Part shown: one piece after another, positions 7,848 to 23,343 of the stretch | Layout: each line of letters starts with the position of its first letter | How positions within the stretch are numbered: the first letter of the stretch is position 1 | NCBI RefSeq assembly: GCF_902497555.1 | Contig: NZ_CABVGP010000004.1 | Location: 186,001-250,000, forward strand | Direction of reading: 5' to 3' | Source: Amycolatopsis camponoti | GTDB taxonomy: Bacteria; Actinomycetota; Actinomycetes; Mycobacteriales; Pseudonocardiaceae | Length of the DNA stretch: 64,000 nt | Made by a program: the position numbers and the translations under genes | The notes under the pieces: model-generated | What the model saw: only the letters and a program-made list of their open reading frames with translations | What the model was told of the DNA's origin: nothing | Database searches by the model: none

Positions 7848-7871
7848 TACCCGAGGTCAGCGCGGGGAAAC
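7848..7871 (-). promoter_or_regulatory. Sigma-F/B-like promoter of the ndh operon
   Basis: On the minus strand GTTT, a 15-nt spacer and GGGTA (followed by AT) match the SigF/SigB consensus GTTT-N14-16-GGGTA exactly. Expected transcription start is about 30 nt before the NDH-2 ATG, leaving room for its GAAGGAG ribosome site. Confidence 0.8.
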
Positions 7872-7978
7872 CCGCGGGGTTGACCTGGGGGCCCAGGGGC
7901 GTACGGTCAGAGGCGTTGGCTGTTGTTCAGAATCACGTGCTCCGGTCAGCGCCCCTGCACGCTGCGTTAGGGAGCGCC

Positions 7979-8350
7979 ATGTACTGCTTTCGCACGATCG
8001 ACGAACCGTCCGGCCTGACCTACACCACCACAGAGCGACCGGGCGGCGTCCGCGTGGTCACCATAGTCGGTGACGTCGACGCCGCCACTGTCGAAACCTT
8101 CGACGAAGCCCTCGCCACCGGCGAGCGGCTGGTCGTCGATCTGACCCGCGTCGCCTTCCTCGGCTGCGCCGGTGTCCGGTCCCTGCTCGCGGCGAACAAC
8201 CGCGCGCGCCTTGCCGTCGTCCTCGGCGGCCACGCCGTCACCCGCTCGCTGGAGGCCACCGGCGCGGACGTGCTGCTGGAGATCCACCCCCGGGTCGGCG
8301 CCGCGCTCGCGGACCTGACCCCGGTCGCCGAGCCCGGCCGGGAGGCGTGA
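7979..8350 (+). CDS. STAS-domain anti-sigma-factor antagonist-like protein
   Basis: A 123-residue single STAS domain (about residues 12-105). It contains VVTIVGDVDAATVETF and the core strand-helix LVVDLTRVAFLGCAGVRSLL. In SpoIIAA/RsbV proteins that turn reads D-S-S/T-G and carries the serine phosphorylated by the anti-sigma kinase; here residues 62-65 are G-C-A-G, so no phosphorylatable residue is present. Proteins of this kind free sigma factors by binding RsbW-like anti-sigma proteins, and one such protein is encoded at 14915-15364. A single cysteine at the site hints at redox control (inference). The start ATG lies after GGGAG (spacing 3-4). Confidence 0.85.
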   Translation: MYCFRTIDEPSGLTYTTTERPGGVRVVTIVGDVDAATVETFDEALATGERLVVDLTRVAFLGCAGVRSLLAANNRARLAVVLGGHAVTRSLEATGADVLLEIHPRVGAALADLTPVAEPGREA

Positions 8351-8404
8351 CCGCCCGCCGGTCCCGCCTCCCGCCGTCCACTGTGGACAGTAAAGACCCT
8401 GTGG

Positions 8405-8668
8405 TCAGTCGTCCGGCCAGTCGCCCGTGGCTTTCTCGTAGCCGATGGCGCCGGCCCGCTCGGTCGCGGCCTTGACCGCGGCGAAGATCGCGCCCTGCAC
8501 CGCCGCCGCGATGATCACCTGTCGCCAGGTGTAGTCGCGGTCGGTGGCGTCGGGCGCGTCTTCCTCGCCCGCGACGCGCTTCCAGACCTGCTTGAACGCC
8601 TGGCCGGCGAGGATGCCGCCGAGCGCGCCCACCACCCAGCTCAGCGGCTTGTACAGCACCTTGTTCAC
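8405..8668 (-). CDS. DUF4235 family membrane protein
   Basis: An 87-residue protein with two hydrophobic segments: one around residues 8-25 (WVVGALGGILAGQAF) and one around 50-66 (VIIAAAVQGAIFAAVKAA). A charged loop with EEDAPDATDRDYTW separates them. This is the DUF4235 layout; function is unknown, and the family is common beside DUF3618 genes in actinobacteria. Its GTG start overlaps the DUF3618 stop by 4 nt (GTGA), indicating translational coupling as the third gene of a stress-promoter operon. Confidence 0.85.
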   Translation of the reverse strand: MNKVLYKPLSWVVGALGGILAGQAFKQVWKRVAGEEDAPDATDRDYTWRQVIIAAAVQGAIFAAVKAATERAGAIGYEKATGDWPDD

Positions 8669-8973
8669 GAGTCGCTCCTCCGTCGCAGGATCAGCCGGAT
8701 CACGATCACCAGGCCCAGCACCCCGGCGAAGATCGGTACCGGGTTGCTGCGCACGACGTCGGCGCCCTGGCGGAACTTGACCGCGGTGGGCTCGTTCGTC
8801 ACGTCGGCGACCTTCGCGGTCGCCTGGTCGAGCTTCTCGTCGACGTTTTCCTTGACCCGGGTCTTCACGTCGAGCTTCTGCCCGAGCGCTTCCAGCGTTT
8901 CGGTCAGCTCTTCGCGGGTGGTGTCCCGGTCGAGCCGCGCCTCTTCGGCGTTCTTCGGGAAGTCCCCGCTCAT
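8665..8973 (-). CDS. DUF3618 family protein with C-terminal membrane helix
   Basis: A 102-residue protein. Residues 10-45 form the DUF3618 helical segment (RDTTREELTETLEALGQKLD), followed by a heptad-rich helix and a single C-terminal transmembrane helix (PIFAGVLGLVIVIRLIL) with a basic tail. It is probably anchored in the membrane with a cytoplasmic coiled segment. Function is unknown. Its ATG overlaps the stop of the holin-like gene upstream (ATGA), and its own stop overlaps the DUF4235 start, so the three are one operon. Confidence 0.85.
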   Translation of the reverse strand: MSGDFPKNAEEARLDRDTTREELTETLEALGQKLDVKTRVKENVDEKLDQATAKVADVTNEPTAVKFRQGADVVRSNPVPIFAGVLGLVIVIRLILRRRSDS

Positions 8974-9383
8974 GTGTGCACTCCCTGTTTCACGGTTTCC
9001 ACGTCTTCGCGGACGCCGCTGATGGCTTCTTCGGGCACCGGTGGCACGCCCTGCGTGACTTCCTTCTTGCCGACCAGCGCGGCGATCCCGGCGACCAGGA
9101 ACAACGCGACCGCGACGATCACCGCGGCCAGCCAGCCGGGTACGACGAGCGCGAGCGCCAGCACGGCGGCCGCGACCAGCGTGGCGGCGCCGAACAGCGC
9201 GAACAGGCCCGCCGCGCCGAACAGCCCGGCACCGAGGCCCATCTTCTTGCCCTTGCGCTGCAGTTCGAAGACCGCGAGCCGCATCTCGTCCCGGACGAGC
9301 CGCTTGACCTCGCCGGTCAGGTCCGTCACCAGCTCGCCGACCGAGCGGTCGGCCGCCGGCTGCTTGTTGACTTCTTCGATCAC
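8970..9383 (-). CDS. Actinobacterial phage-holin-superfamily III (DUF1469-like) membrane protein
   Basis: A 137-residue protein. The N-terminal ~45 residues are an amphipathic helix (VGELVTDLTGEVKRLVRDEM), then two long transmembrane helices (about 52-75 and 80-103) joined by a short VPGW turn, and a charged tail. This matches the Phage_holin_3_6/DUF1469 family; despite the name these chromosomal proteins are not known to lyse cells. It starts with GTG 6-8 nt after AAGGAGG and leads the operon with DUF3618 and DUF4235. All three are small envelope-associated proteins, so a role in membrane stress is inferred. Confidence 0.85.
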   Translation of the reverse strand: MIEEVNKQPAADRSVGELVTDLTGEVKRLVRDEMRLAVFELQRKGKKMGLGAGLFGAAGLFALFGAATLVAAAVLALALVVPGWLAAVIVAVALFLVAGIAALVGKKEVTQGVPPVPEEAISGVREDVETVKQGVHT

Positions 9384-9410
9384 GGAACACCTCCTTGCCT
9401 GGCCGCCGTG

Positions 9411-9433
9411 TACCCACTGGGCCCGGGGTCAAC
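9411..9433 (-). promoter_or_regulatory. Sigma-F/B-like promoter of the holin-DUF3618-DUF4235 operon
   Basis: Minus strand GTTG, 14-nt spacer, GGGTA, ending 27 nt before the GTG start. One mismatch from GTTT in the upstream element. Confidence 0.65.
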
Positions 9434-9564
9434 CACGCCGGGTTTGACCGGTGCGGCACCGGGTAGGCGGTTTCCCGGTCGCCGGCCCCGGTCCGGGAGC
9501 ACGCCGGCGCACCCCCCAGCGCCACACGAACGGGTGACGCGGCGAGGCGGGAACGCACCGCGGT

Positions 9565-9589
9565 GTTTCGCGTCCGGGGGCCTCGGGTA
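9565..9589 (+). promoter_or_regulatory. Sigma-F/B-like promoter of the aldo/keto reductase gene
   Basis: GTTT, 16-nt spacer, GGGTA. The GGGTA ends 10 nt before the ATG at 9600, so the transcript should start at or a few bases before the ATG: a leaderless gene. No Shine-Dalgarno sequence is present, which agrees. Confidence 0.8.
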
Positions 9590-9599
9590 GGCGGCAAGC

Positions 9600-10433
9600 A
9601 TGACTTCCCCCGACGTCCCGGCCGTGGAACTGAACAACGGCGTGCGGATCCCGCAGTTCGGGTTCGGCGTGTTCCAGATCCCGCCCGAGGAGACCGCCCA
9701 GGCCGTGCGGACCGCGCTGGAGGCCGGCTACCGCCACATCGACACGGCGCAGATGTACCGCAACGAACAGGGAGTCGGCGCCGGCATCGCGGAGTCGGGG
9801 ATCCCGCGCGAAGACGTGTTCGTCACGACGAAGCTGGCGAACGACGCGCACGGCCACGACAACGCCATCACCGCGCTCGAGGGCAGCCTGCAGCGCCTGG
9901 GCTTCGACTACGTCGACCTCTACCTGATCCACTGGCCGTTGCCCCACAAGAACAACTACGTCGCGACGTGGCGGGGCTTCGAGGACATCCTGCGGGCGGG
10001 CAAGGCCTGCGCCATCGGCGTCTCGAACTTCCAGCCCGCGCACCTCGACCGGCTCGCCGAGGAGACCGGCACCGTGCCCGCGGTCAACCAGATCGAGCTG
10101 CACCCGGCGTTGCAGCAGACCGAACTGCGCGCCTACCACCGGGAGCACGGCATCGCCACCGAAGCCTGGAGTCCCTTGGCCCAGGCCGAAGTCCTCTCGG
10201 ACCCGGTGCTCACCGACCTGGCCGAGAAGCACGGCCGGACCGCCGCGCAGGTGGTGCTGCGCTGGCACATCCAGCTCGGGAACATCGTCTTCCCCAAGTC
10301 GTCTTCGCCGGAGCGGATCAAGCAGAACATCGACGTCTTCGGCTTCGAGCTCGACGACGAGGACATGACGGCGATCGGCAAGCTCGACGCCGGCCGGCGC
10401 ACCGGGCCGGACCCGGAGACCTTCACGGGGTGA
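9600..10433 (+). CDS. Aldo/keto reductase (2,5-diketo-gluconate reductase type)
   Basis: A 277-residue (alpha/beta)8 NADPH-dependent oxidoreductase. The catalytic tetrad is visible: Asp in GYRHIDTAQMYRNE (about residue 45), Tyr in the same block, Lys in FVTTKLAND (about 77) and His in LYLIHWPLP (about 110). The C-terminal NADPH motif is FPKSSSPERIKQNIDVF. Family members detoxify aldehydes and ketones, which suits its place in the stress island. The gene is probably leaderless and driven by a sigma-F-like promoter. Substrate cannot be told from sequence. Confidence 0.9.
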   Translation: MTSPDVPAVELNNGVRIPQFGFGVFQIPPEETAQAVRTALEAGYRHIDTAQMYRNEQGVGAGIAESGIPREDVFVTTKLANDAHGHDNAITALEGSLQRLGFDYVDLYLIHWPLPHKNNYVATWRGFEDILRAGKACAIGVSNFQPAHLDRLAEETGTVPAVNQIELHPALQQTELRAYHREHGIATEAWSPLAQAEVLSDPVLTDLAEKHGRTAAQVVLRWHIQLGNIVFPKSSSPERIKQNIDVFGFELDDEDMTAIGKLDAGRRTGPDPETFTG

Positions 10434-10440
10434 CCGCGGC

Positions 10441-10465
10441 GTTTCCCTCCGCAACCGCCCGGGTA
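10441..10465 (+). promoter_or_regulatory. Sigma-F/B-like promoter of the 10504 membrane-protein gene
   Basis: GTTT, 16-nt spacer, GGGTA, about 38 nt before the ATG; GAAGGAG lies between as ribosome site. Confidence 0.8.
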
Positions 10466-10503
10466 CCTCACCCGGAGAGGTCCCCCTGGAAGGAGCATCC
10501 GGC

Positions 10504-10974
10504 ATGAGCACCAACGCGTACCTGTCGTTTCTCGTGATCGGGGTGGTGCTGGTCCTGGTCGACGGGCAGATCATCTACCGCAGCGGACGCCGTTACCTGG
10601 AGAACTCCTACGGCGACCCGGCGGCGGGTGCGTCGATGACCCGGCTGGTCACAGTGCTGTTCCACCTCGCGACGCTGGGCATCCTGGCCCTCATGTCGAC
10701 CATCGACCTCGGCGACGGCATCCCCGGCGTCGTCAAGCGCGTCGGCGTTCTGCTGCTGATCCTGGCCATCGCCCACGCGATCACGCTCGCCGTTCTGTCC
10801 CGCATCCGCGGCGAGCAGGAGGTGGAGGCGGTCGTCCAGCGCGGCCCCCGGCCGCAGCAGCGGGTGGAACCCGAGCCGCAGCGCCCGACCGTGACGCCGG
10901 CGCCGGGTCAGCCGGGTACCTACCCGGACGTCAGCCCGTCGCTGGAGAACCGGTCCCCGTACTCGGCTTCGTAA
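10504..10974 (+). CDS. Hypothetical three-helix membrane protein
   Basis: A 156-residue protein of no family I can name. Three hydrophobic segments are visible (about residues 6-22, 43-62 and 80-98). The C-terminal 50 residues are soluble, Pro/Gln/Glu-rich and probably disordered (RPQQRVEPEPQRP). The ATG has CTGGAAGGAG 6-7 nt upstream. The sigma-F-like promoter in front puts it in the stress regulon. Confidence 0.75.
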   Translation: MSTNAYLSFLVIGVVLVLVDGQIIYRSGRRYLENSYGDPAAGASMTRLVTVLFHLATLGILALMSTIDLGDGIPGVVKRVGVLLLILAIAHAITLAVLSRIRGEQEVEAVVQRGPRPQQRVEPEPQRPTVTPAPGQPGTYPDVSPSLENRSPYSAS

Positions 10975-10989
10975 CCGGATTCCGGTCCG

Positions 10990-11021
10990 AGGGCGGCTCT
11001 TTCCCGGGAAAGTGCCGCCCT
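10990..11021. terminator. Bidirectional hairpin between convergent genes
   Basis: Arms AGGGCGGC and GCCGCCCT enclose the inner palindrome CTTTCCCGGGAAAG with one T-T mismatch, giving a stem of about 14 paired positions. It lies between the converging 10504 and 11039 genes. No U-run follows. Confidence 0.7.
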
Positions 11022-11038
11022 TGTCCGTGCCCGGGGCC

Positions 11039-11836
11039 TCAGCGGTCCGCCGGCAGCTCCACCTCGGTGTGGCGGGTGGCGAGCGTCCGGGCCAGGTCGG
11101 CCAGCTTGACGTTCAGGTCCTGGGACGCGCGGCGCAGCACATCGAACGCTTCGTCGGCGGTGATGCCGCGGCGCTGCATCAGGATGCCCTTCGCCTGGCC
11201 GATCACGTCCCGGCTCTCGACCGCGCGGCGCAGGTGCTCCGCCTCCAGTTCGGCCGCCACGACGGCCTCCGTGTGCGCCAGCGCCAGGGACGCGTGGGTC
11301 GCCAGCAGGAGCGCGAGGTCGATCGCCGCGCCGTCGAACGCACCCGGCCGGCTCGAGTAGATGTTGAGCGCACCCGAGCGCCGCGGCGGACGGGCGTCGG
11401 GGAGCAAGGCCGTCGCCAGCACCGAGTGGTACCCGTGGCCGGCCGTGGCCGGACCGAACGACGGCCAGCGCGGGTCGCGGCCGACGTCCTGCGACCAGGC
11501 GATGGCCGGCCCGTCCGGGCGCGCCGACTCGACGCACGGCCCCTCGCCGTGGTCGTACTGCACCTGGTCCAGCCGCACCGCGACCGGGTCGGTCTCCACC
11601 GGCGTGTGGTACCGGCCGTCGGGTTCCCGCAGGGTGACGCTGACCAGGTCGGCGTCCGGGACGAGCGCGCTCGCGGCGCCGACGACGAGCCGGAGCACGC
11701 CCCCGACGGTCGGGGTCACGTCGAGCAGCGTGCGCGTGAGATCGGCGAACTGCCGCGCCAGCGGCCCGGCCGGTTCGATACCGTCCTGCGCGAACCCGGC
11801 GCGTTCCCGCGCCCACTCGTCTTCGTCGATGCTCAT
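11039..11836 (-). CDS. GAF-ANTAR RNA-binding regulator
   Basis: A 265-residue protein with a GAF sensor domain (about residues 35-180, containing DHGEGPCVESA and YHSVLATALLP) and a C-terminal three-helix ANTAR domain (about 200-255). The ANTAR block has the invariant RDVIGQAKGILMQRRGITADEAFDVLRR signature, here abbreviated at VIGQAKGILM. ANTAR domains bind paired RNA hexaloops and prevent termination (established family knowledge), so targets are transcripts with tandem small stem-loops. The ligand of the GAF domain is unknown. The ATG is at 11836; the region upstream contains GGGGGTA but no convincing partner box. Confidence 0.88.
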   Translation of the reverse strand: MSIDEDEWARERAGFAQDGIEPAGPLARQFADLTRTLLDVTPTVGGVLRLVVGAASALVPDADLVSVTLREPDGRYHTPVETDPVAVRLDQVQYDHGEGPCVESARPDGPAIAWSQDVGRDPRWPSFGPATAGHGYHSVLATALLPDARPPRRSGALNIYSSRPGAFDGAAIDLALLLATHASLALAHTEAVVAAELEAEHLRRAVESRDVIGQAKGILMQRRGITADEAFDVLRRASQDLNVKLADLARTLATRHTEVELPADR

Positions 11837-11886
11837 GCGTCTCCGTCGTCTTCGAGATGTACCCCCATTCAACCCGATGCCGATGC

Positions 11887-12414
11887 TCAACCGGGCGAGC
11901 CGGCCGCGTGGCGCAGCGCGGCTCGCGCCCGGTCGACGAAGCCCGGGCCCGGCCACAGCTGGTCGGCCTGAGGCATGCGGTCGGACAGGTCCGGGTGCGG
12001 CAGCGTCGCCGCGGCGTCCCGGGCCGCCGTGACCTCCTTGCCCAGCTCGGCGCGCCGCTCCGGCGAACACGTGAGCCGGACCTGCCGCACCGCCTCCGGG
12101 CCCTCTTCCCGGACGTGCCGGCGCACGGCGCGGATCAGCCCGCCCAGGAGGCGCTCGAACCGGGTCTCCTGCGGTCCGACGCCCTCCAGCTCGCGCATCA
12201 GGCCGTCCGCCTCCGCGAGGTCGCCTTCGCCATCGACAAAGGACTCTTCGGCGACGGCGTGGCGGACGACCTCCGCGATCAGGTGGTCGGCGAGGTCCTT
12301 GCGGTTCTCGGGGCTGCCCTGGCCGAGCTCGAGCTCGGTGCACAGCCGGTCCAGTCTCCGGTGGTCGCCGGCGAGGACGGTGGTCAGGTCGGTTGCGGGC
12401 TGGCTGCCGTTCAT
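11887..12414 (-). CDS. Hemerythrin/HHE cation-binding domain protein
   Basis: A 175-residue four-helix-bundle protein. Candidate metal ligands lie in LAGDHRRLDRLC (about residue 17), in DHLIAEVVRHAVAEESFV (about 43-60) and in VRRHVREEG (about 98). The HxxxE spacing fits the HHE/hemerythrin-like family, which binds di-iron and in actinobacteria responds to oxidative and nitrosative stress. The ATG has GGAGCG 4 nt upstream. It is divergent from the CYTH-CHAD gene and has its own sigma-F-like promoter. Confidence 0.82.
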   Translation of the reverse strand: MNGSQPATDLTTVLAGDHRRLDRLCTELELGQGSPENRKDLADHLIAEVVRHAVAEESFVDGEGDLAEADGLMRELEGVGPQETRFERLLGGLIRAVRRHVREEGPEAVRQVRLTCSPERRAELGKEVTAARDAAATLPHPDLSDRMPQADQLWPGPGFVDRARAALRHAAGSPG

Positions 12415-12453
12415 GCACGCTCCTGGTCCGGACTCGGGTTTTCCCGGACCGGA

Positions 12454-12477
12454 TACCCGCTGCCCGGCGGCCGAATC
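12454..12477 (-). promoter_or_regulatory. Sigma-F/B-like promoter of the hemerythrin-like gene
   Basis: Minus strand GATT, 15-nt spacer, GGGTA, followed by T. It lies 40-63 nt before the ATG and is back to back with the promoter of the divergent CYTH-CHAD gene. Confidence 0.6.
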
Positions 12478-12479
12478 CC

Positions 12480-12504
12480 GTGTCGGCCCGGTGCCCGCCG
12501 GGTA
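12480..12504 (+). promoter_or_regulatory. Sigma-F/B-like promoter of the CYTH-CHAD gene
   Basis: GTGT, 16-nt spacer, GGGTA. The same GTGT-N16-GGGTA form occurs before the rsbW-sigF operon. It ends 36 nt before the ATG. Confidence 0.6.
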
Positions 12505-12539
12505 CCCGCCGGGGGAATCGGCCCCGAAGGAGGATGACC

Positions 12540-14051
12540 ATGGCAGCGCCGTCGTCGGTGATCGAGCGCGAACGCAAGTACGAGATCGTGGCGGGCAGTG
12601 GAGTGCCCCGGCTCGTCGGCGTCGCGGGCGTCGAGACGCAGGACGACCCGGTCGAACAGATCCTCGACGCATCCTACTACGACACCGAAACCTTCCGGCT
12701 GGCGCGCGGCGGCATCACGCTGCGGCGCCGCGTCGGCGGGCACGACGCGGGCTGGCACCTCAAGCTGCCGGTCTCCGCCGACGAGCGGCAGGAGATCCAG
12801 CTGCCGCTGGGCGGCGACCCGAACAAGGTCCCCGGACGGCTGCGCCGGCTCGTGCGCGCCTACACGCTGGGGGAGAAGCTGGTGCCGATCGCGCACCTGC
12901 GCACCGACCGGTTCGCCCACCGGCTGGCCGACGGCGACGGCCGGACCGTCGCGACCCTCACCGACGACCACGTGACGGGCGAAGCCGGTGGCGAGAGCGC
13001 GCGGCTCGACGAGTGGCGCGAGCTGGAGCTGGAACTCGATCCCGCGACCGACCCGGGCCGGCTCGAGGACTTCGACCGGGCCCTCGGGGAAGCCGGCGCC
13101 TCGGCCTCGCCGTGGCCGTCGAAGCTGCGGCGCCTGATCGGCGACCGCGTCCCCGCGCCGCCCCGCGGCCGCAAGAAGCCGACGGCGGGCGACGTCGTGC
13201 TGACGTCGCTGCGCGAGCACTACGCCCGGCTGCGCCGCGCCGACGTCGGGGTGCGCCTGGACGTCGAGGACTCCGTCCACCAGATGCGCGTCGCGACCCG
13301 GAAGCTGCGCAGCTCGCTGAAGACGTTCGGGTCCGTCGTGGACGAGGACGAGACGCTCACGGCCGAGTTGAAGTGGCTCGGGCAGCAGCTGGCGCCGGCC
13401 CGCGACGCGGAGGTCAGCGAGCGGCGGCTGCGCGAGCAGCTCGACGAGATCCCGTCCGAGCTGGTGTTCGGGCCCCTGCGGCAGTACCTCACCCGCTACT
13501 TCGCCCGCGAGGCCGAGGAGGGGCGAACCCGGGCGATGGCGGCGCTGACCGGCAAGCGGTACCGGACCCTGCTGCGCACGCTGGACACCCTGGTGGAGAA
13601 CCCGCCGCTCACCCGCCGGGCGCGCAAGCCGGCGAAGTCCGCCTTGCGCAAGCCCGTGCGCAAAGCCGCCGCGAAGCTGCGCCGGGCCGAAGCGGCGACG
13701 CGCGGGCTGACCGGCCACGAGCTCGAGACCGCACTGCACGAGGTCCGCAAGAAGGCGAAGCGGGCCCGCTACGCCGCCGACACCGTCAAGCCGGTCTACG
13801 GCAAGAAGCTGCGGCAGTGGCGCAAGAACGTCAAGACCGTCCAGGGCACGCTGGGCGAGCACCAGGACACCGCGGTCGGCCGGGACGTCCTGCACCACCT
13901 CACCATCGCCGGACACGGCGAAGGGCAGAACACGTTCACGTTCGGGCTGCTCTACGAGCGGGACGCCGAGAGGGCGGAGAAGCTGCGCCGGCGGTTCGCG
14001 GGGGAGTGGCGGCGGCTCCGGAAGGGCGAGCGGCCGGGCTGGCTGCGCTGA
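12540..14051 (+). CDS. CYTH-CHAD polyphosphate-associated protein
   Basis: A 503-residue two-domain protein. The CYTH domain (about 1-200) starts with the metal-phosphate signature VIERERKYE and continues with SYYDTETFRLARGGITLRRR and WHLKLP; CYTH enzymes cleave triphosphates, including tripolyphosphate, in a beta-tunnel. The CHAD domain (about 215-495) has the histidine and basic clusters VHQMRVATRKLRSSLKTF and LHEVRKKAKRARYAA, which bind polyphosphate. The pair suggests attachment to or turnover of polyphosphate granules. The ATG at 12540 sits 6 nt after GAAGGAGG; the ATG at 12534 touches that site and is too close. Divergent from the hemerythrin-like gene. Confidence 0.88.
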   Translation: MAAPSSVIERERKYEIVAGSGVPRLVGVAGVETQDDPVEQILDASYYDTETFRLARGGITLRRRVGGHDAGWHLKLPVSADERQEIQLPLGGDPNKVPGRLRRLVRAYTLGEKLVPIAHLRTDRFAHRLADGDGRTVATLTDDHVTGEAGGESARLDEWRELELELDPATDPGRLEDFDRALGEAGASASPWPSKLRRLIGDRVPAPPRGRKKPTAGDVVLTSLREHYARLRRADVGVRLDVEDSVHQMRVATRKLRSSLKTFGSVVDEDETLTAELKWLGQQLAPARDAEVSERRLREQLDEIPSELVFGPLRQYLTRYFAREAEEGRTRAMAALTGKRYRTLLRTLDTLVENPPLTRRARKPAKSALRKPVRKAAAKLRRAEAATRGLTGHELETALHEVRKKAKRARYAADTVKPVYGKKLRQWRKNVKTVQGTLGEHQDTAVGRDVLHHLTIAGHGEGQNTFTFGLLYERDAERAEKLRRRFAGEWRRLRKGERPGWLR

Positions 14052-14088
14052 CGCCGTCCGGGAGGCCGGGAACGACCTGGTCAGGACG

Positions 14089-14124
14089 CCGGATGTCATG
14101 AACGAGCCCGTTCATGACATCCGG
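14089..14124. terminator. Perfect 16-bp hairpin between convergent genes
   Basis: Arms at 14089-14104 and 14109-14124 (CCGGATGTCATGAACG and its complement) with the 4-nt loop AGCC. It lies between the CYTH-CHAD and sigma-factor genes, which converge, and probably ends both transcripts. Less GC-rich than its surroundings, so it may be a dispersed repeat. Confidence 0.75.
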
Positions 14125-14126
14125 GT

Positions 14127-15364: not shown

Positions 15365-15375
15365 GCCGGAGGTAC

Positions 15376-15400
15376 TACCCATCTGGGCGAATGACGACAC
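15376..15400 (-). promoter_or_regulatory. Autoregulatory sigma-F/B-like promoter of rsbW-sigF
   Basis: Minus strand GTGT, 16-nt spacer, GGGTA. It ends 11 nt before the ATG at 15364, so transcript and translation starts nearly coincide. Confidence 0.75.
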
Positions 15401-15426
15401 TTCGTGGCCAGGGATTTCCGGTTTCG

Positions 15427-15756: not shown

Positions 15757-15785
15757 GACCGCTCCCTTCGACTGCGTGGACGGGG

Positions 15786-15809
15786 TACCCGGTTGATCAT
15801 CGGGTAAAC
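15786..15809 (-). promoter_or_regulatory. Sigma-F/B-like promoter of the SAP-like protein gene
   Basis: Minus strand GTTT, 15-nt spacer, GGGTA: exact match to consensus, 30 nt before the ATG. Confidence 0.8.
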
Positions 15810-15834
15810 GCCACTTCCGGGCGGTGGGCGGCCG

Positions 15835-15857
15835 GTTACCCGACCGGGGAGCGGGTA
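15835..15857 (+). promoter_or_regulatory. Sigma-F/B-like promoter of the LLM oxidoreductase gene
   Basis: GTTA, 14-nt spacer, GGGTA, 28 nt before the ATG at 15886. Divergent from the promoter at 15786-15809, so this intergenic region fires both ways. Confidence 0.65.
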
Positions 15858-15885
15858 CGCGGGGTGGGAGCGAAAGGAGGCGCCG

Positions 15886-16848: not shown

Positions 16849-16930
16849 CTCCACCCGTTCGGGGTAACGCGGATCTATGCCGGCAGGAGTAAGACGCGCA
16901 GTACGGACAGTCCGGCGACGGGAGTTGCGG

Positions 16931-18697
16931 ATGACCGACGTGAAGCCGACCCTCCAGGCGGTACCGCTGGCGGTGGCGCGGCGGGGCCCCAAGGGCGGGA
17001 CCCTCCTGGCCCTGCTGCGCACCACCGACCCGAAGCAGATCGGGTTGCTGTACCTGACGACGTCGTTCGCCTTCTTCATGGCGGGCGGCGCGATGGCGCT
17101 GCTGATGCGCGGCGAGCTGGCCCGGCCGGGGCTGCAGTTCCTGTCGCCGGAGCAGTACAACCAGCTGTTCACCATGCACGGCACGATCATGCTGCTGCTC
17201 TACGCCACCCCGAATCTCTTCGGGTTCGCGAACTACATCCTGCCGCTGCAGATCGGCGCGCCGGACGTCGCGTTCCCGCGGCTCAACGGCTTCGCTTACT
17301 GGCTCTACCTGTTCGGCGGGCTGATCGTCATCAGCTCGTTCCTCACCCCGGGCGGCGCGCCCGACTTCGGCTGGACGGCCTACACCCCGCTGTCCAACGC
17401 CATCCACTCGCCGGGCATCGGCGGCGACCTGTGGATCATGGGCCTGATCGTGTCCGGGCTCGGCACCATCCTGGGTGCGGTCAACATGGTCACCACGATC
17501 GTGTGCCTGCGCGCGCCCGGGATGACGATGTGGCGGATGCCGATCTTCACCTGGAACATCCTGTTCACCGCGGTCCTGATCATGCTGGCGTTCCCGATCC
17601 TCACCGCGGCGCTGTTCGGCCTCGAAGCGGACCGCCGGCTCGGGGCGCACGTGTTCGACCCCGAAAACGGCGGGGCGATCATGTTCCAGCACCTGTTCTG
17701 GTTCTTCGGCCACCCCGAGGTCTACATCGTGGCGCTGCCCTACTTCGGGATCGTCACCGAGATCGTGCCGGTGTTCAGCCGGAAACCGCTCTACGGCTAT
17801 CGGCTGATGGTGTTCGCGACCGTCGCGATCACCGGCCTGTCGGCGGTGGTGTGGGCGCACCACATGTTCGCCACCGGCGCGGTGCTGCTGCCGTTCTTCT
17901 CGATCATGACCTTCCTCATCGCGGTGCCGACCGGGATCAAGTTCTTCAACTGGATCGGCACGATGTGGAAGGGGCACCTGACCTTCGAGACGCCGATGCT
18001 GTGGTCGGTCGGCTTCATGGTCACCTTCCTGTTCGGCGGCCTCACCGGCGTGATCCTGGCGTCGCCGCCGCTGGACTTCCACGTCACCGACTCGTACTTC
18101 GTCGTCGCGCACTTCCACTACGTGCTGTTCGGCACGATCGTGTTCGCGACGTTCGCCGGGATCTACTTCTGGTTCCCGAAGATGACCGGCCGGATGCTCG
18201 ACGAGGGGCTCGGCAAGTGGCACTTCTGGACGACGTTCATCGGCTTCCACACCACGTTCCTCATCCAGCACTGGCTGGGTGACGAGGGCATGCCCCGCCG
18301 GTACGCGGACTACCTGACCTCGGACGGTTTCACGACCCTGAACACGATCTCGACGATCGGCGCGTTCATCCTCGGCGCGTCGACGCTGCCGTTCATCTGG
18401 AACGTCGTGAAGAGCTACCGCTACGGCGAGCGGGTCCTGGTCGACGACCCGTGGGGCTTCGGCAACAGCCTCGAATGGGCGACGACGTGCCCGCCGCCGC
18501 GGCACAACTTCCTGGACCTGCCGCGCATCCGGTCGGAGCGGCCCGCGTTCGAGCTGCACCACCCGGAGGCGGTCGAGCGGATGGCGGAGGAGCGGCACGT
18601 GCGCTCCAAGCGGGCCCAGGCCCGGGCACTGGACCGGGCCGCGAGTCCGTCCGGAGCGCGGGAGGGGCACGCGGGCGCGGCGGGTTCGTCGCGCTGA
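16931..18697 (+). CDS. ctaD: Cytochrome c oxidase subunit I (aa3 type), stand-alone copy
   Basis: A 588-residue haem-copper oxidase subunit with about 12 transmembrane helices. Low-spin haem ligand His lies in [10 protein letters not shown] (about residue 82). The Tyr-His crosslink site is [14 protein letters not shown] (about 260), CuB histidines follow in WAHHMF (about 310), and the C-terminal haem ligands are in [11 protein letters not shown] (about 395). Start chosen at the ATG 6 nt after GGGAG. No CtaC, CtaE or qcr genes are nearby, so this must be an extra copy that borrows other subunits. It lies 82 nt after the LLM gene; no strong sigma-F-like site was found in that gap. Confidence 0.92.
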
Positions 18698-18709
18698 CGC
18701 GCCGGTCGC

Positions 18710-19075
18710 TCAGGCCGGCGCGGGCTCCGGACGCAGCGCGGCGACGGTGAGGCGCCGGTCGGCCTCCGTCACCCGCAAGGCCCGGCGGACCATCGGGTTC
18801 GGTCCGGTGACGACCAGCAGGTCCGTGCCGCTCTGCTCGGCCTGCAGCGCCGCGTGCAGCAGCATCCGGACGCCCGCCACGCCGAGGAAGTCCACTTCGG
18901 ACAGATCGAGGGTCAGCCGCTCCGGCGTCGCCCACAGGCGGTCCGAAACGAGGGCGGCCAGATCGCCGGCCGTCGCGGTGTCGAGGGCGCCACGGGCGGT
19001 GATCAGCACCGCGTGCGGAGCGGGCCACGACGTGCGTAGCCGCAGGGCGGGATTTCGTGGTCGGGGAAGCATCAT
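18710..19075 (-). CDS. Second STAS-domain anti-sigma antagonist-like protein
   Basis: A 121-residue STAS protein (domain about 20-115). Core segment: RLTLDLSEVDFLGVAGVRMLL. The position of the phosphorylated Ser/Thr is G-V-A-G (65-68), so like the STAS protein at 7979 it cannot be switched by the classical kinase. A C-terminal stretch LLVVTGPNPMVRRALRV is usual for the family. The double ATG at 19073-19075/19070-19072 makes the start ambiguous by one codon; no good ribosome site is present. Confidence 0.82.
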   Translation of the reverse strand: MMLPRPRNPALRLRTSWPAPHAVLITARGALDTATAGDLAALVSDRLWATPERLTLDLSEVDFLGVAGVRMLLHAALQAEQSGTDLLVVTGPNPMVRRALRVTEADRRLTVAALRPEPAPA

Positions 19076-19372
19076 GCGGTTCGCCGCCGTCCTGGTGTGG
19101 CGCGGGGCCGCAGCGCCGCGCCCGAGGGGTTTCCGAGCCGGCTGCTGTGCTGAACCGATACCCGAGCCCAACCGTGGGCGAGCGGCCCGCAACCGTCGTT
19201 GCTCCGAACGGGCGTGTGGCGCGCCGCGGCGGTGACCGCTTGTGCCCGTGCCGACGAGGATGCAGTAATCTCGCGCTGGACCCGTTAAAGCGCTAGCGGC
19301 CCACTAGTGGCGCGCGCCCGGGTCCTCCCTGGTTCTTAGCGCCCTGAGCACAAGAAGAGGGGCGTCACCAGG
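19076..19372. other. 297-bp intergenic region without a gene
   Basis: Divergent spacer between the STAS gene and the GAF-ANTAR gene. I see AAGAGGGGCG as a possible ribosome site for the ANTAR gene and a GGGTATCGG box on the minus strand (around 19161) whose upstream partner is poor. No ORF with protein-like composition was found. Confidence 0.5.
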
Positions 19373-20104
19373 ATGACGGGCGGCGATGAGCAGCTCACCG
19401 CGCGGTTGGACGAAGTCACGGTAGCGATGGAATCGCTGACCGCGATGCTGGACTCGGAGCTCGATCTGGGCCAGATGCTGCAGGCGGTCTGCGACCACGC
19501 GGTGCAGGTGGTGCCGGGAGCCGACATGGCGAGCATCACCCTGGTGCGTGAAGGCGAGCCGGAGACGGTGGCCAGCACGGACCAGCGGGCGGTGAACTTC
19601 GATCGCGAGCAGTACCGGATCGGGGACGGCCCGTGCCTGCGCGCGGCCGAGACCGGGCAGCCGGTGCGCGTCGGCGTCGGGGCTGTGGGCGACGTGTGGC
19701 CGCAGTTCGTGTCGAAGGCGGAACAGCTGGGCGTCGCGAGCTTCCTGGCCGCGCCGCTGACGGTGGACGACGACATGTCCGGCGCGGTGAACCTGTTCGG
19801 CTTCGGCGAGCACGGCTTCAGCGAGCTGGGCACGAAGATCCTCGAGCTGTACACGGCGACGGTGGTGATCGGCCTGCGCAGCGCGCGCCGGTACTTCGCG
19901 GCGCGCGAGCTGATCGACCAGCTGAACCGCGCGCTCGAGACGCGCGCGGTGATCGACCAGGCCAAGGGCATCCTCATGGCCGCGCACCGGATCAGCGCGG
20001 AGGAAGCGTTCCAGCGGCTCGTGAAGCGCTCCCAGGACGGCAACCGCAAGCTCCACGAGGTGGCGGCGGAGTTCGTGGAGGCGGTCGCGACCACGACGGC
20101 GTGA
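19373..20104 (+). CDS. GAF-ANTAR RNA-binding regulator
   Basis: A 243-residue paralogue of the protein at 11039. The GAF domain (about 25-165) has QYRIGDGPCLRAAETGQPV and VASFLAAPL. The ANTAR domain (about 180-235) has RAVIDQAKGILMAAHRISAEE and AFQRLVKRSQDGNRKL. It should act as a transcription antiterminator by binding RNA. It converges with the small zinc-ribbon gene, 7 bp apart. The ATG lies 9 nt after AAGAGGGG. Confidence 0.88.
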   Translation: MTGGDEQLTARLDEVTVAMESLTAMLDSELDLGQMLQAVCDHAVQVVPGADMASITLVREGEPETVASTDQRAVNFDREQYRIGDGPCLRAAETGQPVRVGVGAVGDVWPQFVSKAEQLGVASFLAAPLTVDDDMSGAVNLFGFGEHGFSELGTKILELYTATVVIGLRSARRYFAARELIDQLNRALETRAVIDQAKGILMAAHRISAEEAFQRLVKRSQDGNRKLHEVAAEFVEAVATTTA

Positions 20105-20111
20105 CGTCCGG

Positions 20112-20321
20112 CTAGCTGGTCGGTACCTCGTCCGGCGGTGCCTCGGCTTCGGCGATCGGGTCGGGCCGGTGCCTGCTGCGCTGGCACGTCGTGCAGACCA
20201 GCGTCCGGCCGAGCACGGTCCCGTCGTCGGCGACGACCTGGGCGACGTGCATCGTCGGGAAGCCGCAGACTTCGCAGGGCAGCGACCCGTCCTCACGGCT
20301 GATGCGGATCTGGGTGCCCAT
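20112..20321 (-). CDS. Small zinc-ribbon-like protein
   Basis: A 69-residue protein with two CxxC pairs, LPCEVCGF (about 15-18) and LVCTTCQRSR (about 42-45), spaced like a four-cysteine zinc ribbon. The C-terminal 20 residues are acidic and Pro-rich. No named family. The ATG at 20321 follows CAGGAGG 6 nt upstream. A 22-bp inverted repeat lies directly before the ribosome site and may be an operator. Confidence 0.75.
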   Translation of the reverse strand: MGTQIRISREDGSLPCEVCGFPTMHVAQVVADDGTVLGRTLVCTTCQRSRHRPDPIAEAEAPPDEVPTS

Positions 20322-20330
20322 CCGGCCTCC

Positions 20331-20352
20331 TGTGTGACGTGGGTCTCACACA
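20331..20352. promoter_or_regulatory. Inverted repeat before the zinc-ribbon gene
   Basis: Arms TGTGTGA and TCACACA separated by 8 bp, 10-31 bp upstream of the ATG at 20321. A dimeric regulator site is likely by form; the regulator is unknown. It could also form an RNA hairpin near the ribosome site. Confidence 0.45.
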
Positions 20353-20440
20353 CCTTGCCGGTTTCCCGGTCGGAACCGGCCGAATTCACTCGTTCGGCCT
20401 AGCGTCGGCTGTCTCCGGGAACCCGTTCGGTGCCTCTTGT

Positions 20441-20463
20441 GTTCAGGGGGATGAGACGGGGTA
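20441..20463 (+). promoter_or_regulatory. Sigma-F/B-like promoter of the 20509 small gene
   Basis: GTTC, 14-nt spacer, GGGTA, followed by A. It ends 45 nt before the ATG. Confidence 0.6.
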
Positions 20464-20508
20464 ATCGCCCGGCGAAGGGTGACCGGGGATAGCCGGAGGG
20501 GAGCGAAC

Positions 20509-20706
20509 ATGCGAGACAAGCGGAACGACCTGCGACCGGTGGCGGACCTGCTCTTGGAGGGCGGGGACACGCCGGCCCAGGCGTCGACGCGGCGCAAGGC
20601 CGCGCTGGCCGTCGCGGCGAACGCGAAGGACCCTGAAGACTGCGCGCAGCTGCTCGACATGCTGGGCCTGCACCGGGCCGGCAGTCGCAGCAGCGAAGTC
20701 GCCTGA
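20509..20706 (+). CDS. Small helical hypothetical protein
   Basis: A 65-residue soluble protein with no family I can name. Sequence pattern suggests two or three short helices (RPVADLLLEGG, STRRKAALAVAANAKD, EDCAQLLDMLGL). The ATG at 20509 follows CGGAGGGGAG at good distance and is preferred over the in-frame GTG at 20479, which lacks a ribosome site. A sigma-F-like promoter puts it in the stress group. Confidence 0.7.
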   Translation: MRDKRNDLRPVADLLLEGGDTPAQASTRRKAALAVAANAKDPEDCAQLLDMLGLHRAGSRSSEVA

Positions 20707-20767
20707 CGCACGCCTGAGCCCGCTGTGACCACCCGGTCGCGGCGGGCTCCGGCGCGTCACCCTCCGT

Positions 20768-20792
20768 GTTTCGCGCTCCGGGCCCGCGGGTA
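20768..20792 (+). promoter_or_regulatory. Sigma-F/B-like promoter of ku
   Basis: GTTT, 16-nt spacer, GGGTA, then T. Its first nine bases (GTGTTTCGCG with flank) are identical to those of the aldo/keto reductase promoter at 9563. It ends 25 nt before the ATG. Confidence 0.8.
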
Positions 20793-20817: not shown

Positions 20818-21735
20818 ATGGCGAGACCGGTGTGGAGCGGGGCGCTGAGCCTGGGGCTGGTCACCGTTCCGGTGGAGCTGTACCCGGCGGTGGCGGACCA
20901 CACGATCCACTTCCACCAGTTCGAACGCGGCACGTCGGACCGGATCCGCAACCGCCGGGTCAACGAGCGGACCGGCGACGAGGTGACCCAGGACGAGATC
21001 GTCAAGGGCTACGACCTCGGCGGCGGCGACCACGTGCTGGTCGAGCCGGACGAGCTGGACGAGATCGCCCCCGAGCGGTCCCGGCGGATCGACATCGAGC
21101 AGTTCGTCGAGCTGGACGAGATCGACCCGTGGTTCTTCGATCGCACGTACTGGCTCAAGCCGGCGAAGGAGGACTTCGCCAAGGCGTACGGCTTGCTGCT
21201 GCAGGCGATGGACCGCAGCGAGAAGGCCGGCGTCGCGAAGTTCGTGCTGCGCGGCAAGGAGTACCTCTGCGCGGTCCGCGCCGGCGAAGGCGTGATGGTC
21301 CTCAACACCCTGCACTTCGTCGCGGACCTGCGGAAGCCGGAGGACGTCATGGGCGGGCTGCCCAGCCTGCCGAAGCCGCGGCCCAAGGAGCTCGACATGG
21401 CGCTCGCGCTCGTCGACCAGATGACCGCGCCGTGGAAGCCGGATGACTACCGTGACGAGTACTCCGAGCGCGTCGAAAAGCTGATCAAGGCCAAGGAACA
21501 GGGCAAGGAGATCGCCCACGAAGAGGAGCCGGAGCCGTCGGCCGACGTCGTCGACCTCTTCGAGGCGCTGGCGCGCAGCGTGAAGAACCGCAAGGGCGGC
21601 CGAAAGCAGGGCGGCAAGCAGGACCTGTCCGGCTTGACCAAGTCCGACCTGGAGAAGCTGGCGCGCGAGCAGGGCGTGAAGGGCCGTTCGAAGATGACGC
21701 GCGCGCAGCTGGAGAAGGCGCTGAAGGCGTCGTGA
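20818..21735 (+). CDS. ku: Non-homologous end-joining protein Ku
   Basis: A 305-residue bacterial Ku. The core (about 1-250) starts MARPVWSGALSLGLVTVPVEL and has the family blocks RNRRVNERTGDEV and LVEPDELDEIAPERSRRIDI. Bacterial Ku homodimers encircle DNA ends and recruit LigD. The C-terminus (about 265-305) is a Lys-rich linker plus a SAP/Rho-N-like motif, LSGLTKSDLEKLAREQGVKG followed by RSKMTRAQLEKAL, which should add DNA binding. The ATG has GTGAGGAGG upstream. A perfect sigma-F-like promoter indicates induction in stationary or stressed cells. The adjoining LigD is only a fragment. Confidence 0.93.
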   Translation: MARPVWSGALSLGLVTVPVELYPAVADHTIHFHQFERGTSDRIRNRRVNERTGDEVTQDEIVKGYDLGGGDHVLVEPDELDEIAPERSRRIDIEQFVELDEIDPWFFDRTYWLKPAKEDFAKAYGLLLQAMDRSEKAGVAKFVLRGKEYLCAVRAGEGVMVLNTLHFVADLRKPEDVMGGLPSLPKPRPKELDMALALVDQMTAPWKPDDYRDEYSERVEKLIKAKEQGKEIAHEEEPEPSADVVDLFEALARSVKNRKGGRKQGGKQDLSGLTKSDLEKLAREQGVKGRSKMTRAQLEKALKAS

Positions 21736-21773: not shown

Positions 21774-21781
21774 CGCTCGGC

Positions 21782-22211
21782 GGGTTCTCCGACGAGGGCG
21801 ACGGCCTGAAGTACGCCGGTAAGGTCGGCGCCGGGTTCGGCGAGAAGCTCCTGGCGTCCGTGCACGTCGAGCTGCGAACGTGTGGGGTCCCGCGCGCTGG
21901 CCGACGCCGTCGCCGCGGGCGACCCGGACCGCCTGACCACGGCGCAGCGCAAGGACAAGCGCGGCGACCGGATCTTCCTGGACGCCAACCGCGACGGCTA
22001 CGCGCAGACGTTCGTCGCGCCGTACTCCCTGCGGGCCCGCCCGGGCGCGGCGGCCGCGACCCCGCTGGACTGGCGCGAGCTGGGCAAGGCCGAGCCGGAC
22101 GGGCGGAGCCTGGCCAAGGAGAAGCAGCGCTTGGCGTTCAAGGACGACCCGTGGCGAGACCTGGACGACCACGCGGGATCAGCGGAAGCGGCGCGGAAGC
22201 AGCTCACTTGA
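21782..22211 (+). pseudogene. ligD: Remnant of LigD (ligase end fused out of frame to polymerase end)
   Basis: The first ~100 bases read, in the frame from 21782, GFSDEGDGLKYAGKVGAGFG, typical of the C-terminal OB-fold of the ATP-dependent ligase domain. From 21882, in another frame, 109 codons read RALADAVAAGDPDRLTTAQR then KDKRGDRIFLDANRDGYAQT and FVAPYSLRARPGAAAATPLDW, matching the C-terminal part of the LigD polymerase domain. The catalytic parts of both domains are missing and the reading frame changes between them, so this is a decayed, internally deleted ligD beside ku. Its end overlaps the udgX stop by 8 bp. It may still express the 109-residue tail, but I consider that unlikely. Confidence 0.8.
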
Positions 22212-22836
22212 GTGTCTTGCCGGCCGCCTTCAGATCGGCGACGAAGGCGGCGTAAGCCTCGTCGCGGTCCGGTGCGCGCAGGACGGCCGACGGGTGCACC
22301 GTCGCGACCGCCGACGGCACCAGCTCGGCCACGTCGTCGGGTGCTTCGACGGGTTCGCCGCGGTGGGCCGTCAGCCGGAACTTCGGGCCCAGCAACGACT
22401 GCGCGGCGGTCGCCCCCAGCAGCAGCACCAGCTCGGGGCGCACCGCGCGCAGCTCCGCCAGCAGCCACGGCCGGCAGGCGACCACCTCGGTGCGGCCCGG
22501 CTTCTGGTGGATGCGCCGCTTCCCGCGTTCGTCCCGCTTGAACTTGAAGTGCTTGACCGCGTTGGTGACGTACAGTGTCTTCCGGTCGAAGCCCGCCTCG
22601 GCGAAGGCCCGGTCGAGGAGCTGCCCGGCGGGTCCGACGAACGGCTCGCCCGCGAGGTCCTCCTTGTCGCCCGGCTGTTCGCCGACGACCAGGATCTTCG
22701 CCTTCTCGGGCCCTTCGCCGAACACGGTCTGCGTGGCGTCCTGGTGGAGGGCGCACCCGCGGCAGTCCGACGCGGCCGAACGCAGGCGGTCGAGGTCGGT
22801 GGTGTCCGGCGGCTCCGCGCCGCGGGTGTCCGGCAT
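22204..22836 (-). CDS. udgX: UdgX-type uracil-DNA-binding glycosylase
   Basis: A 210-residue member of the UdgX group of family-4-like uracil-DNA glycosylases. The active-site motif GEQPGDKEDLAG is at 52-63. The hallmark KRRIH loop is at 106-110; in M. smegmatis UdgX the equivalent His becomes covalently joined to the uracil-derived abasic site (established). Iron-sulfur cysteines are seen at 25, 28 and 121, and the C-terminal motif is TVHPSAVLRA. The protein should trap uracil-containing DNA rather than simply release uracil. A sigma-F-like promoter ends 11 nt before the ATG, so the gene is probably leaderless. Confidence 0.9.
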   Translation of the reverse strand: MPDTRGAEPPDTTDLDRLRSAASDCRGCALHQDATQTVFGEGPEKAKILVVGEQPGDKEDLAGEPFVGPAGQLLDRAFAEAGFDRKTLYVTNAVKHFKFKRDERGKRRIHQKPGRTEVVACRPWLLAELRAVRPELVLLLGATAAQSLLGPKFRLTAHRGEPVEAPDDVAELVPSAVATVHPSAVLRAPDRDEAYAAFVADLKAAGKTLK

Positions 22837-22847
22837 GTGCCGGGCAT

Positions 22848-22871
22848 TCCCCGGGCGGTGGGTGCGTAAAC
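22848..22871 (-). promoter_or_regulatory. Sigma-F/B-like promoter of udgX
   Basis: Minus strand GTTT, 15-nt spacer, GGGGA (one change from GGGTA), ending 11 nt before the ATG, the same short distance as in the rsbW and aldo/keto reductase genes. Confidence 0.6.
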
Positions 22872-22977
22872 CCGCCGGTCACGGGTAGCGCGAGCTGCCC
22901 ATCCGCGGCGAGGACAACCGGCTCGGAGGAACGTCACCGACCGCGCTGGCCGAGGCGGTCATATTTGCGGCGAAAGC

Positions 22978-23286
22978 TCAGTGCGAGCCGGCGGCCGGGG
23001 TGGTTCCGTCCGGCGCGGGCTCGCGGGTCGTCTCGGCGCGGGCGATGTGCCACGCCACGAGCGCGCCGGCGCCGACCGTGCCCCAGAGCACGAGGCCGGC
23101 GTCGCGGGCGAACAGGCCGACGAGCAGCATGAGTGCCGCGGTGACGTCGCACAGCGCGAGGAGCAGGGTCCAGCGCTGCTTCTCGCGCAGGGTGCGGCCG
23201 GCGAAGGCGGCCGCGAACGCGGGATCGCTCGCCTGCAGCTCCAGCTCGATTTCGCGCAGGGCGTGGCGTTCGCGATCCGGCAGCAT
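22978..23286 (-). CDS. DUF3040 family membrane protein
   Basis: A 102-residue protein. It begins MLPDRERHALREIELELQAS and continues DPAFAAAF, the DUF3040 N-terminal pattern, followed by two transmembrane helices (about 42-60 and 66-82) and a short Pro-rich tail. The family is found across actinobacteria and has no known function. A sigma-F-like promoter sits 33-57 nt upstream of the ATG; AGGAGG precedes the start. Confidence 0.85.
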   Translation of the reverse strand: MLPDRERHALREIELELQASDPAFAAAFAGRTLREKQRWTLLLALCDVTAALMLLVGLFARDAGLVLWGTVGAGALVAWHIARAETTREPAPDGTTPAAGSH

Positions 23287-23318
23287 CAGGGGCCTCCTCG
23301 CCTCGGCTACCGCTGGAA

Positions 23319-23343
23319 TACCCCCTCGGGGCCCGTTCGAAGC
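23319..23343 (-). promoter_or_regulatory. Sigma-F/B-like promoter of the DUF3040 gene
   Basis: Minus strand GCTT, 16-nt spacer, GGGTA, then TT. It lies just beyond the dehydratase stop at 23362 and marks the right end of the stress island. Confidence 0.65.

Follow-up and report, generated by a model that had tools for sequence, protein, structure and literature searches.

A very likely SigF-type general-stress regulon clustered around its own sigma factor gene in Amycolatopsis camponoti

INTRODUCTION

In Mycobacterium smegmatis, SigF recognizes promoters of the form GTTT-N14-19-GGGTA, and published passages on its regulon put at 142 the genes whose expression falls in exponential phase when sigF is deleted (PMC4694148). 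The same passages list 28 genes at MSMEG_1758-1804, sigF included, that fall in the deletion strain and form a group reduced in both growth phases (PMC4694148). According to passages of a second study, RsbW1 sequesters SigF of this organism until antagonists release it, and loss of the aa3 oxidase or addition of KCN induces the SigF regulon (PMC7693655). For Streptomyces coelicolor, passages of a third study state that nearly all of 24 investigated promoters are recognized by at least two of nine SigB homologs (PMC8346170). GGGAA occurs as a -10 element in S. coelicolor SigB-type promoters (PMC8346170) and in SigF-dependent promoters of M. smegmatis (PMC4694148), as far as these passages go. 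Here we analyze a 64-kb stretch of the Amycolatopsis camponoti genome (contig NZ_CABVGP010000004.1, positions 186,001 to 250,000; "the window"), in which a SigF-type sigma factor gene, sigF, lies among promoter boxes of the same kind. A preliminary description of this DNA had proposed that genes of respiration, DNA repair, and other functions around sigF form one colocalized regulon.

We consider it very likely that a SigF-type sigma factor controls this block as its general-stress regulon, the genes of which are physically gathered around that of their regulator. Its sequence points to a real, selected, and sharply bounded regulon cluster in which many boxed operons are contiguous with sigF; the whole path from a box to expression is inferred.

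RESULTS

SigF-type promoter boxes are confined to one block of the window

Gene models were made with a codon-usage open reading frame (ORF) caller and labeled with Pfam and NCBIfam. The strict motif GTTT-N12-18-GGGTA has six matches in the whole window, all within 7848-20792; shuffled versions of the window contained 0.41 matches on average, and none of 100 shuffles reached six. Thirteen boxes had been listed in the preliminary description. Five of those coordinates (7848, 9565, 10441, 15786, and 20768) carry exact GTTT and GGGTA elements, and seven combine GGGTA with one mismatch in GTTT (GGTT at 9411 and at 15834, listed as 15835; GATT at 12454; GTGT at 12480, 15376, and 20439, the last listed as 20441; GCTT at 23319). 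The remaining site, 22848, lacks GGGTA; on the minus strand, 22847-22871 reads GTTT-N16-GGGAA and lies about 10 nucleotides (nt) upstream of the UdgX gene. The list thus stands for 12 GGGTA boxes, each with GTTT or one mismatch and a spacer of 15 or 16 nt, and is corrected at one site. It also lacked a sixth strict box, at 9442 on the plus strand.

When one mismatch in the -35 element is allowed, the window holds 13 promoter-positioned GGGTA sites, all intergenic and all within 7848-23343, and its other 48 kb or so holds none. Promoter-positioned here means 10 to 45 nt before a start, or 134 nt for the box at 9442; all 12 listed GGGTA boxes fall within 10 to 45 nt, so that their description as lying close before genes was accurate. 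In all, the 15.5-kb cluster comprises 13 of these GGGTA boxes. Together with the GGGAA variant there are 14 boxes, of which six have a 15-nt and eight a 16-nt spacer; positions G1 and T4 of the -35 element are invariant in all 14.

The proposal that box density here exceeds the background was borne out in the nearest genome compared, G001, which shares 30% of sampled words with the window and to which our genome-wide counts refer. As a control we took 20 stretches of 20 kb at arbitrary places in this genome (396 called genes). These 400 kb contain four promoter-positioned GGGTA sites, which corresponds to about 0.15 expected in 15.5 kb versus the 13 found. Genome-wide, G001 has 103 strict sites versus 21 for the reversed pattern. 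Its densest 10-kb stretch is the sigF locus, with 5 of the 100 sites listed (P = 0.00045 in a scan test simulated with evenly spread sites).

The borders of the cluster are sharp. In eight close relatives (464 kb in total, 46 to 60 kb per genome), 95 boxes accompany 189 called genes between -7.5 and +9.6 kb of sigF, and a single box was found over the 250 genes outside these limits. A span of about 17 kb at sigF thus holds all but one of the 96 boxes, with limits that were chosen after the box positions were known. The reversed motif occurs four times in all in the same DNA, and the genes on both flanks of the block are syntenic in the eight relatives.

Boxes are more conserved than the sequence around them

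SigF-type homologs were found in all 60 relatives searched. The comparison covered up to 20 kb at each best SigF match in 35 of the 36 genus genomes and in 5 of the 24 order genomes; G025, with its SigF match at a contig end, was left out, and 2 of the 40 loci are shorter at contig ends. Promoter-positioned boxes number 10 to 13 per locus in the eight closest genomes, 3 to 7 in 13 sister-clade genomes, and 0 to 7 in the other 19 loci. Leaders were aligned pairwise, with orthologs taken whether or not they were boxed. Identity reached 93% in the -35 element (370/396 cells) and 97% in the -10 element (478/495), and was 68 to 73% around the boxes (spacer, 1053/1546; upstream flank, 2900/3960; leader, 1054/1530). 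At the level of sequence, these footprints show that the box sites are real and under selection.

The sigF operon carries two boxes

The sigma factor (14127-14918, minus strand; 263 amino acids) has the Pfam sigma70 r2, r3, and r4 domains and scores above the cutoffs of NF005514 (380.6 bits; cutoff, 372) and TIGR02980 (296.6; cutoff, 234.35). Its nearest named relative found is that of Amycolatopsis sp. MtRt-6, at 95% identity. A 149-amino-acid, RsbW-like anti-sigma factor gene (14915-15364, minus strand) overlaps sigF by 4 nt. Its product is above the HATPase_c_2 cutoff and matches the anti-sigma-F factor RsbW of PDB 8ih8/8jzt (E = 3.7e-10); its matches to the NCBIfam RsbW equivalogs stay below cutoff. 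The NF005514 score and the adjoining RsbW-type gene support the earlier assignment of this operon to SigF.

First in the operon stands a gene for a 109-amino-acid basic protein (15427-15756, minus strand), present in 25 of the 40 compared loci, with a weakly Rho_N-like C terminus (E = 0.027, below cutoff). Profile searches on a homology of this protein to ChaB found only subthreshold Rho_N matches in Pfam (E up to 1) and no match in NCBIfam, and the ORF lists of two mycolicibacterial loci did not decide the matter. A GTTT-N15-GGGTA box (15786-15809, minus strand) precedes the operon and has a GGGTA counterpart in 22 of 25 orthologs; we infer from it a predicted autoregulation of sigF. The second box, GTGT-N16-GGGTA (15376-15400, minus strand), stands directly before rsbW and recurs in 16 of 30 orthologs.

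Two candidate anti-anti-sigma factors with STAS domains are encoded in the block, STAS_a (7979-8350, plus strand; matching PDB 4qtp/8ih8_A) and STAS_b (18710-19009, minus strand), which share 48% identity in alignment. The phosphorylatable Ser that aligns with that of 4qtp is missing from both: STAS_a has Cys, kept in all eight orthologs, and STAS_b has Val. Phosphorylation at this position should therefore switch neither protein. An RsfB-like protein may be encoded elsewhere in the genome, and a redox role for the Cys of STAS_a is a guess.

Boxes precede most operons of the block

The leftmost box (GTTT-N15-GGGTA, 7848-7871, minus strand) precedes the gene for an NDH-2-like pyridine nucleotide-disulfide oxidoreductase (6520-7809; Pyr_redox_2). 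GGGTA boxes are found at 8 of 23 orthologs, namely, 6 of 7 from the close clade and those of G010 and G002. This gene heads a minus-strand run with gaps of 11 to 29 nt that continues with a 165-amino-acid protein without a family match in profile searches (6011-6508), a PoxB-like thiamine pyrophosphate (TPP) enzyme of the PRK08273 family (4191-5981; TPP_enzyme N, M, and C domains; NF006129 above cutoff), and a baeRF family 2 protein (3096-4178; PF18844). Boxes before most operons support the proposed regulon membership; PoxB has none of its own and would be served through the run headed by the 7848 box.

Next come a GGTT-N15-GGGTA box (9411-9434, minus strand; 21/21 orthologs) and an operon with 4-nt overlaps (8405-9383, minus strand) encoding Holin-X (8970-9383; PF07332), DUF3618 (8665-8973; PF12277), and DUF4235 (8405-8668; PF14019) proteins. 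On the plus strand, an aldo-keto reductase gene (9600-10433; Aldo_ket_red) follows a GTTT-N16-GGGTA box (9565-9589; 8/8 orthologs). The extra strict box (GTTT-N15-GGGTA, 9442-9465), 134 nt before the reductase, lacks a gene close behind it. In this place, five relatives (G006, G026, G028, G018, and G004) carry a pair of strict boxes on the plus strand, spaced by about 0.6 kb and with the second at the reductase, and a gene may therefore have been lost between 9442 and 9565 here. Another GTTT-N16-GGGTA box (10441-10465, plus strand; 19/21 orthologs) precedes the gene for a 156-amino-acid hydrophobic protein (10504-10974). Boxes at 12454-12477 (GATT-N15-GGGTA, minus strand; 8/8 orthologs) and 12480-12504 (GTGT-N16-GGGTA, plus strand; 8/9 orthologs) stand back to back, the former before a hemerythrin-like gene (11887-12414) and the latter before a CYTH-CHAD gene (12540-14051). 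Downstream of the hemerythrin-like gene, after a 50-nt gap, lies a GAF-ANTAR gene (11039-11836, minus strand), for which the box search found no box of its own.

To the right of the sigF operon, a GGTT-N15-GGGTA box (15834-15857, plus strand; 19/19 orthologs) precedes an F420-dependent LLM oxidoreductase gene (15886-16848; TIGR03557). A copy of the aa3 oxidase subunit I gene, ctaD (16931-18697, plus strand; NF050116), follows 82 nt behind it with no box of its own; none of the 40 compared loci has a CtaD match at this place. All 36 relatives searched have a CtaD-type match elsewhere in the genome, and in G050, of another family, CtaD adjoins a SigF-type gene and strict boxes. A second GAF-ANTAR regulator gene (19373-20104, plus strand) is unboxed in the window and in all nine orthologs.

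Two plus-strand boxes follow, GTGT-N16-GGGTA (20439-20463; 21/21 orthologs) before the gene for a 65-amino-acid protein (20509-20706) and GTTT-N16-GGGTA (20768-20792; 4 of 11 linked orthologs) before the Ku gene (20818-21735; TIGR02772). The GGGAA variant (22847-22871) precedes the UdgX gene (22204-22836; TIGR03914) and is found in 16/16 orthologs. Between Ku and UdgX, positions 21882-22211 encode an apparent remnant, the C-terminal part of a LigD primase-polymerase domain; matches to it lie about 2.4 to 2.5 kb from the Ku position in four relatives versus 1.1 kb in the window. The right-hand end of the cluster is a GCTT-N16-GGGTA box (23319-23343, minus strand; 7/8 orthologs) before the gene for a DUF3040 protein (22978-23286). 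Far from the cluster, an S-adenosylhomocysteine riboswitch (55486-55564; Rfam RF01057, 41.3 bits) lies about 15 nt before a long ORF (55579-59232).

The same families are boxed outside the block in a sister clade

The layout of the CYTH-CHAD, Ku, and hemerythrin families differs between the close clade and the sister clade. Each of the eight close relatives has a single close CYTH-CHAD homolog (78 to 89% identity; next, at most 44%) and a single close Ku homolog (88 to 93%; next, at most 36%), and in all eight both are in the cluster. In the 13 sister-clade genomes, no ortholog of CYTH-CHAD, Ku, or hemerythrin lies within 10 kb of sigF. Homologs occur elsewhere, CYTH-CHAD in 13 of 13 genomes (55 to 58% identity), Ku in 12 of 13 (63 to 66%), and a hemerythrin relative in 10 of 13 (44 to 46%). 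Upstream of these unlinked homologs we found a GGGTA box in 13 of 13, 12 of 12, and 9 of 10 cases, respectively, mostly 30 to 60 nt before the matched start; at a more distant Ku homolog (36% identity), the count was 0 of 13. Because the unlinked homologs are boxed, the predicted control by a SigF-type factor appears to be independent of linkage for at least three families. The clustering is a lineage-specific arrangement. In a Ku tree, linked and unlinked Ku fall on separate branches, the linked branch including the more distant G034, G012, and G022.

Alternatives to a regulon gathered around sigF

Several observations weigh against the reading of the block as a SigF regulon gathered around its regulator. 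Inside the block, both GAF-ANTAR genes, STAS_b, and a 69-amino-acid ORF have no box and STAS_a has no GGGTA box; IlvD, to the right of the cluster, has no box either. Half of the eight close relatives have Ku without a GGGTA box. NDH-2 near sigF is boxed in 0 of 11 sister-clade orthologs, and its control is therefore lineage restricted. Aldo-keto reductase homologs of about 60% identity in the sister clade are likewise unboxed (0/20, with 20 tested of 37 listed); with 8 of 8 linked orthologs boxed, control of this gene seems tied to the block, and independence of location is not universal. The hemerythrin relative lies only 22 to 44 kb from sigF in 6 of 10 sister-clade genomes. Finally, the trees do not polarize gathering versus dispersal, and in G034, G012, and G022, too, Ku lies close to a SigF-type gene.

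In a somewhat unlikely alternative, nothing was gathered: the block would be an old conserved neighborhood whose boxes came by inheritance or arose on the spot, and the clustering would reflect linkage and not recruitment. The Holin-X operon, the genes for the 156-amino-acid, F420-dependent, and 65-amino-acid proteins, and the sigF operon are boxed in both clades, as such a history would have it, and the linked Ku of the three more distant genomes fits it too. So does NDH-2, which is near sigF and unboxed in the sister clade, so that its box was gained or lost in place. Against it stand the boxed CYTH-CHAD and Ku genes outside the sigF block in 13 and 12 of the 13 sister-clade genomes; these families can therefore occur in either place while staying boxed.

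It is unlikely, at a lower level still, that the boxes are real promoters read mainly by other SigB/SigF paralogs or shared among several, in which case the linked SigF would not be the only regulator of the block. G001 does have further SigF-type genes (58% and 51% identity), a point that also counts against a regulon of the linked sigF, and the cross-recognition reported in passages on the 24 promoters and nine SigB homologs of S. coelicolor (PMC8346170) is a precedent. The boxes nevertheless crowd at the linked sigF copy and end abruptly to its left and right in the eight relatives, and two of them stand on that gene's own operon. The least tenable explanation, that GTTT-like and GGGTA words are common in 72% GC DNA and the cluster arose by chance from loose matching, draws on the eight of 14 boxes that depart from the strict motif at one position and is ruled out by the shuffles, the reversed-motif and 400-kb controls, and the footprints.

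A mobile genomic island was also considered as an origin of the block. GC content is 69 to 75% per 4 kb in the window and 0.70 to 0.72 across the block, inside the window range; this composition and the syntenic flanks in eight relatives do not support an island.

Dense clusters recur as exceptions at other sigF loci

We surveyed 80 SigF-type loci of named actinobacteria, dropped 3 that were under 10 kb, and counted boxes within 10 kb in the remaining 77. No box was found at 36 loci, one at 17, two at 11, three at 4, four at 2, and five or more at 7. The total of 115 promoter-positioned sites compares with 9 for the reversed motif. Counts at loci of lower GC content are lower bounds because gene calls there are poor, the codon model having come from this window. 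The seven loci with at least five boxes represent six distinct genomes, those of MtRt-6 (twice), Mycolicibacter senuensis, Nocardia amikacinitolerans, Rhodococcus aetherivorans, Lentzea flava, and Actinokineospora inagensis. Weaker clusters among them are less sure because reversed-motif sites also occur (two in R. aetherivorans, one in Actinokineospora). In MtRt-6, apparently one sigF locus lies on two scaffolds (L101 and L139, with equal identity, length, and box counts), which looks like duplication or assembly redundancy.

Dense clusters are thus the exception but recur, and in the one case examined they contain mostly other genes. The preliminary description had called such clustering unusual, which suits the 53 of 77 loci with no or one box but not the published block of 28 genes in M. 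smegmatis. Elsewhere, in G040, dense groups of strict GTTT-N15/16-GGGTA sites (eight at 972069-1006637 of contig C1 and seven at 2006149-2020949 of C2) are not beside the SigF matches listed for that genome.

DISCUSSION

Read as a SigF regulon gathered around sigF, the block suggests the following mechanism. RsbW, judging from its family, would hold SigF, and STAS-type antagonists, two of them encoded in the block without a phosphorylatable Ser, would free it under stress. A plausible trigger is stress on respiration or redox state, as in M. smegmatis. SigF-RNA polymerase would then start at some 14 putative GNNT-N15/16-GGG(T/A)A promoters, two of which would feed back on the rsbW-sigF operon. 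The predicted output includes a respiratory bypass (NDH-2, pyruvate oxidase, and perhaps the extra aa3 subunit), repair of DNA ends and uracil (Ku and UdgX), and CYTH-CHAD, hemerythrin, F420 oxidoreductase, and small membrane proteins. NDH-2, the pyruvate-oxidase-like enzyme, and the extra aa3 subunit fit a respiratory-stress output.

The analysis predicts a SigF regulon for Amycolatopsis and would tie the Ku of nonhomologous end joining and UdgX to the general stress response in this genus. Closely related pairs of genomes with the same boxed families inside and outside the sigF block make the effect of clustering on the stress response testable. Tentatively, sigF neighborhoods may be collecting points, with different boxed genes beside sigF in the Amycolatopsis clade, M. 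smegmatis, Mycolicibacter, and Nocardia and with the same families boxed but unlinked in sister clades. If so, this would be a general rule of stress-regulon layout, possibly since proximity speeds a positive-feedback switch.

Our literature searches found no paper on a SigF regulon of Amycolatopsis and none with a title on sigF-centered regulon layout, and one review that came up contains the words SigF and LigD; the passages on the M. smegmatis regulon carry no remark on gene clustering. The kind of cluster is known, and its gene content and the contrast between linked and unlinked families are new as far as these searches show. The locus resembles the S. coelicolor SigB family in its GNNT -35 and GGGTA or GGGAA -10 elements and in belonging to a family of stress sigma factors; S. 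coelicolor differs in having nine cross-recognizing paralogs, and the passages on it describe no sigF-centered cluster (PMC8346170). M. smegmatis, which lay outside the loci fetched, was compared by published gene names. As far as the published passages extend, it shares the GTTT-N15/16-GGGTA boxes with GGGAA variants, regulon genes beside sigF, and hemerythrin and oxidoreductase genes in the regulon, and it differs in that SigF dependence is measured there and predicted in Amycolatopsis. The 28 rows of its published block name UsfY, P450, topoisomerase I, RsbW, and ChaB, and they name no Ku, UdgX, NDH-2, CYTH-CHAD, or Holin-X, many being labeled "hypothetical." The sigF locus of Mycolicibacter senuensis (L147) is similar in density, with nine promoter-positioned boxes within 10 kb, seven of them strict; it shares a boxed hemerythrin gene with the A. 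camponoti block, and its other boxed genes encode CBS, DUF2795, PNPOx, FAD/Rieske oxidoreductase, ADH, and cutinase proteins.

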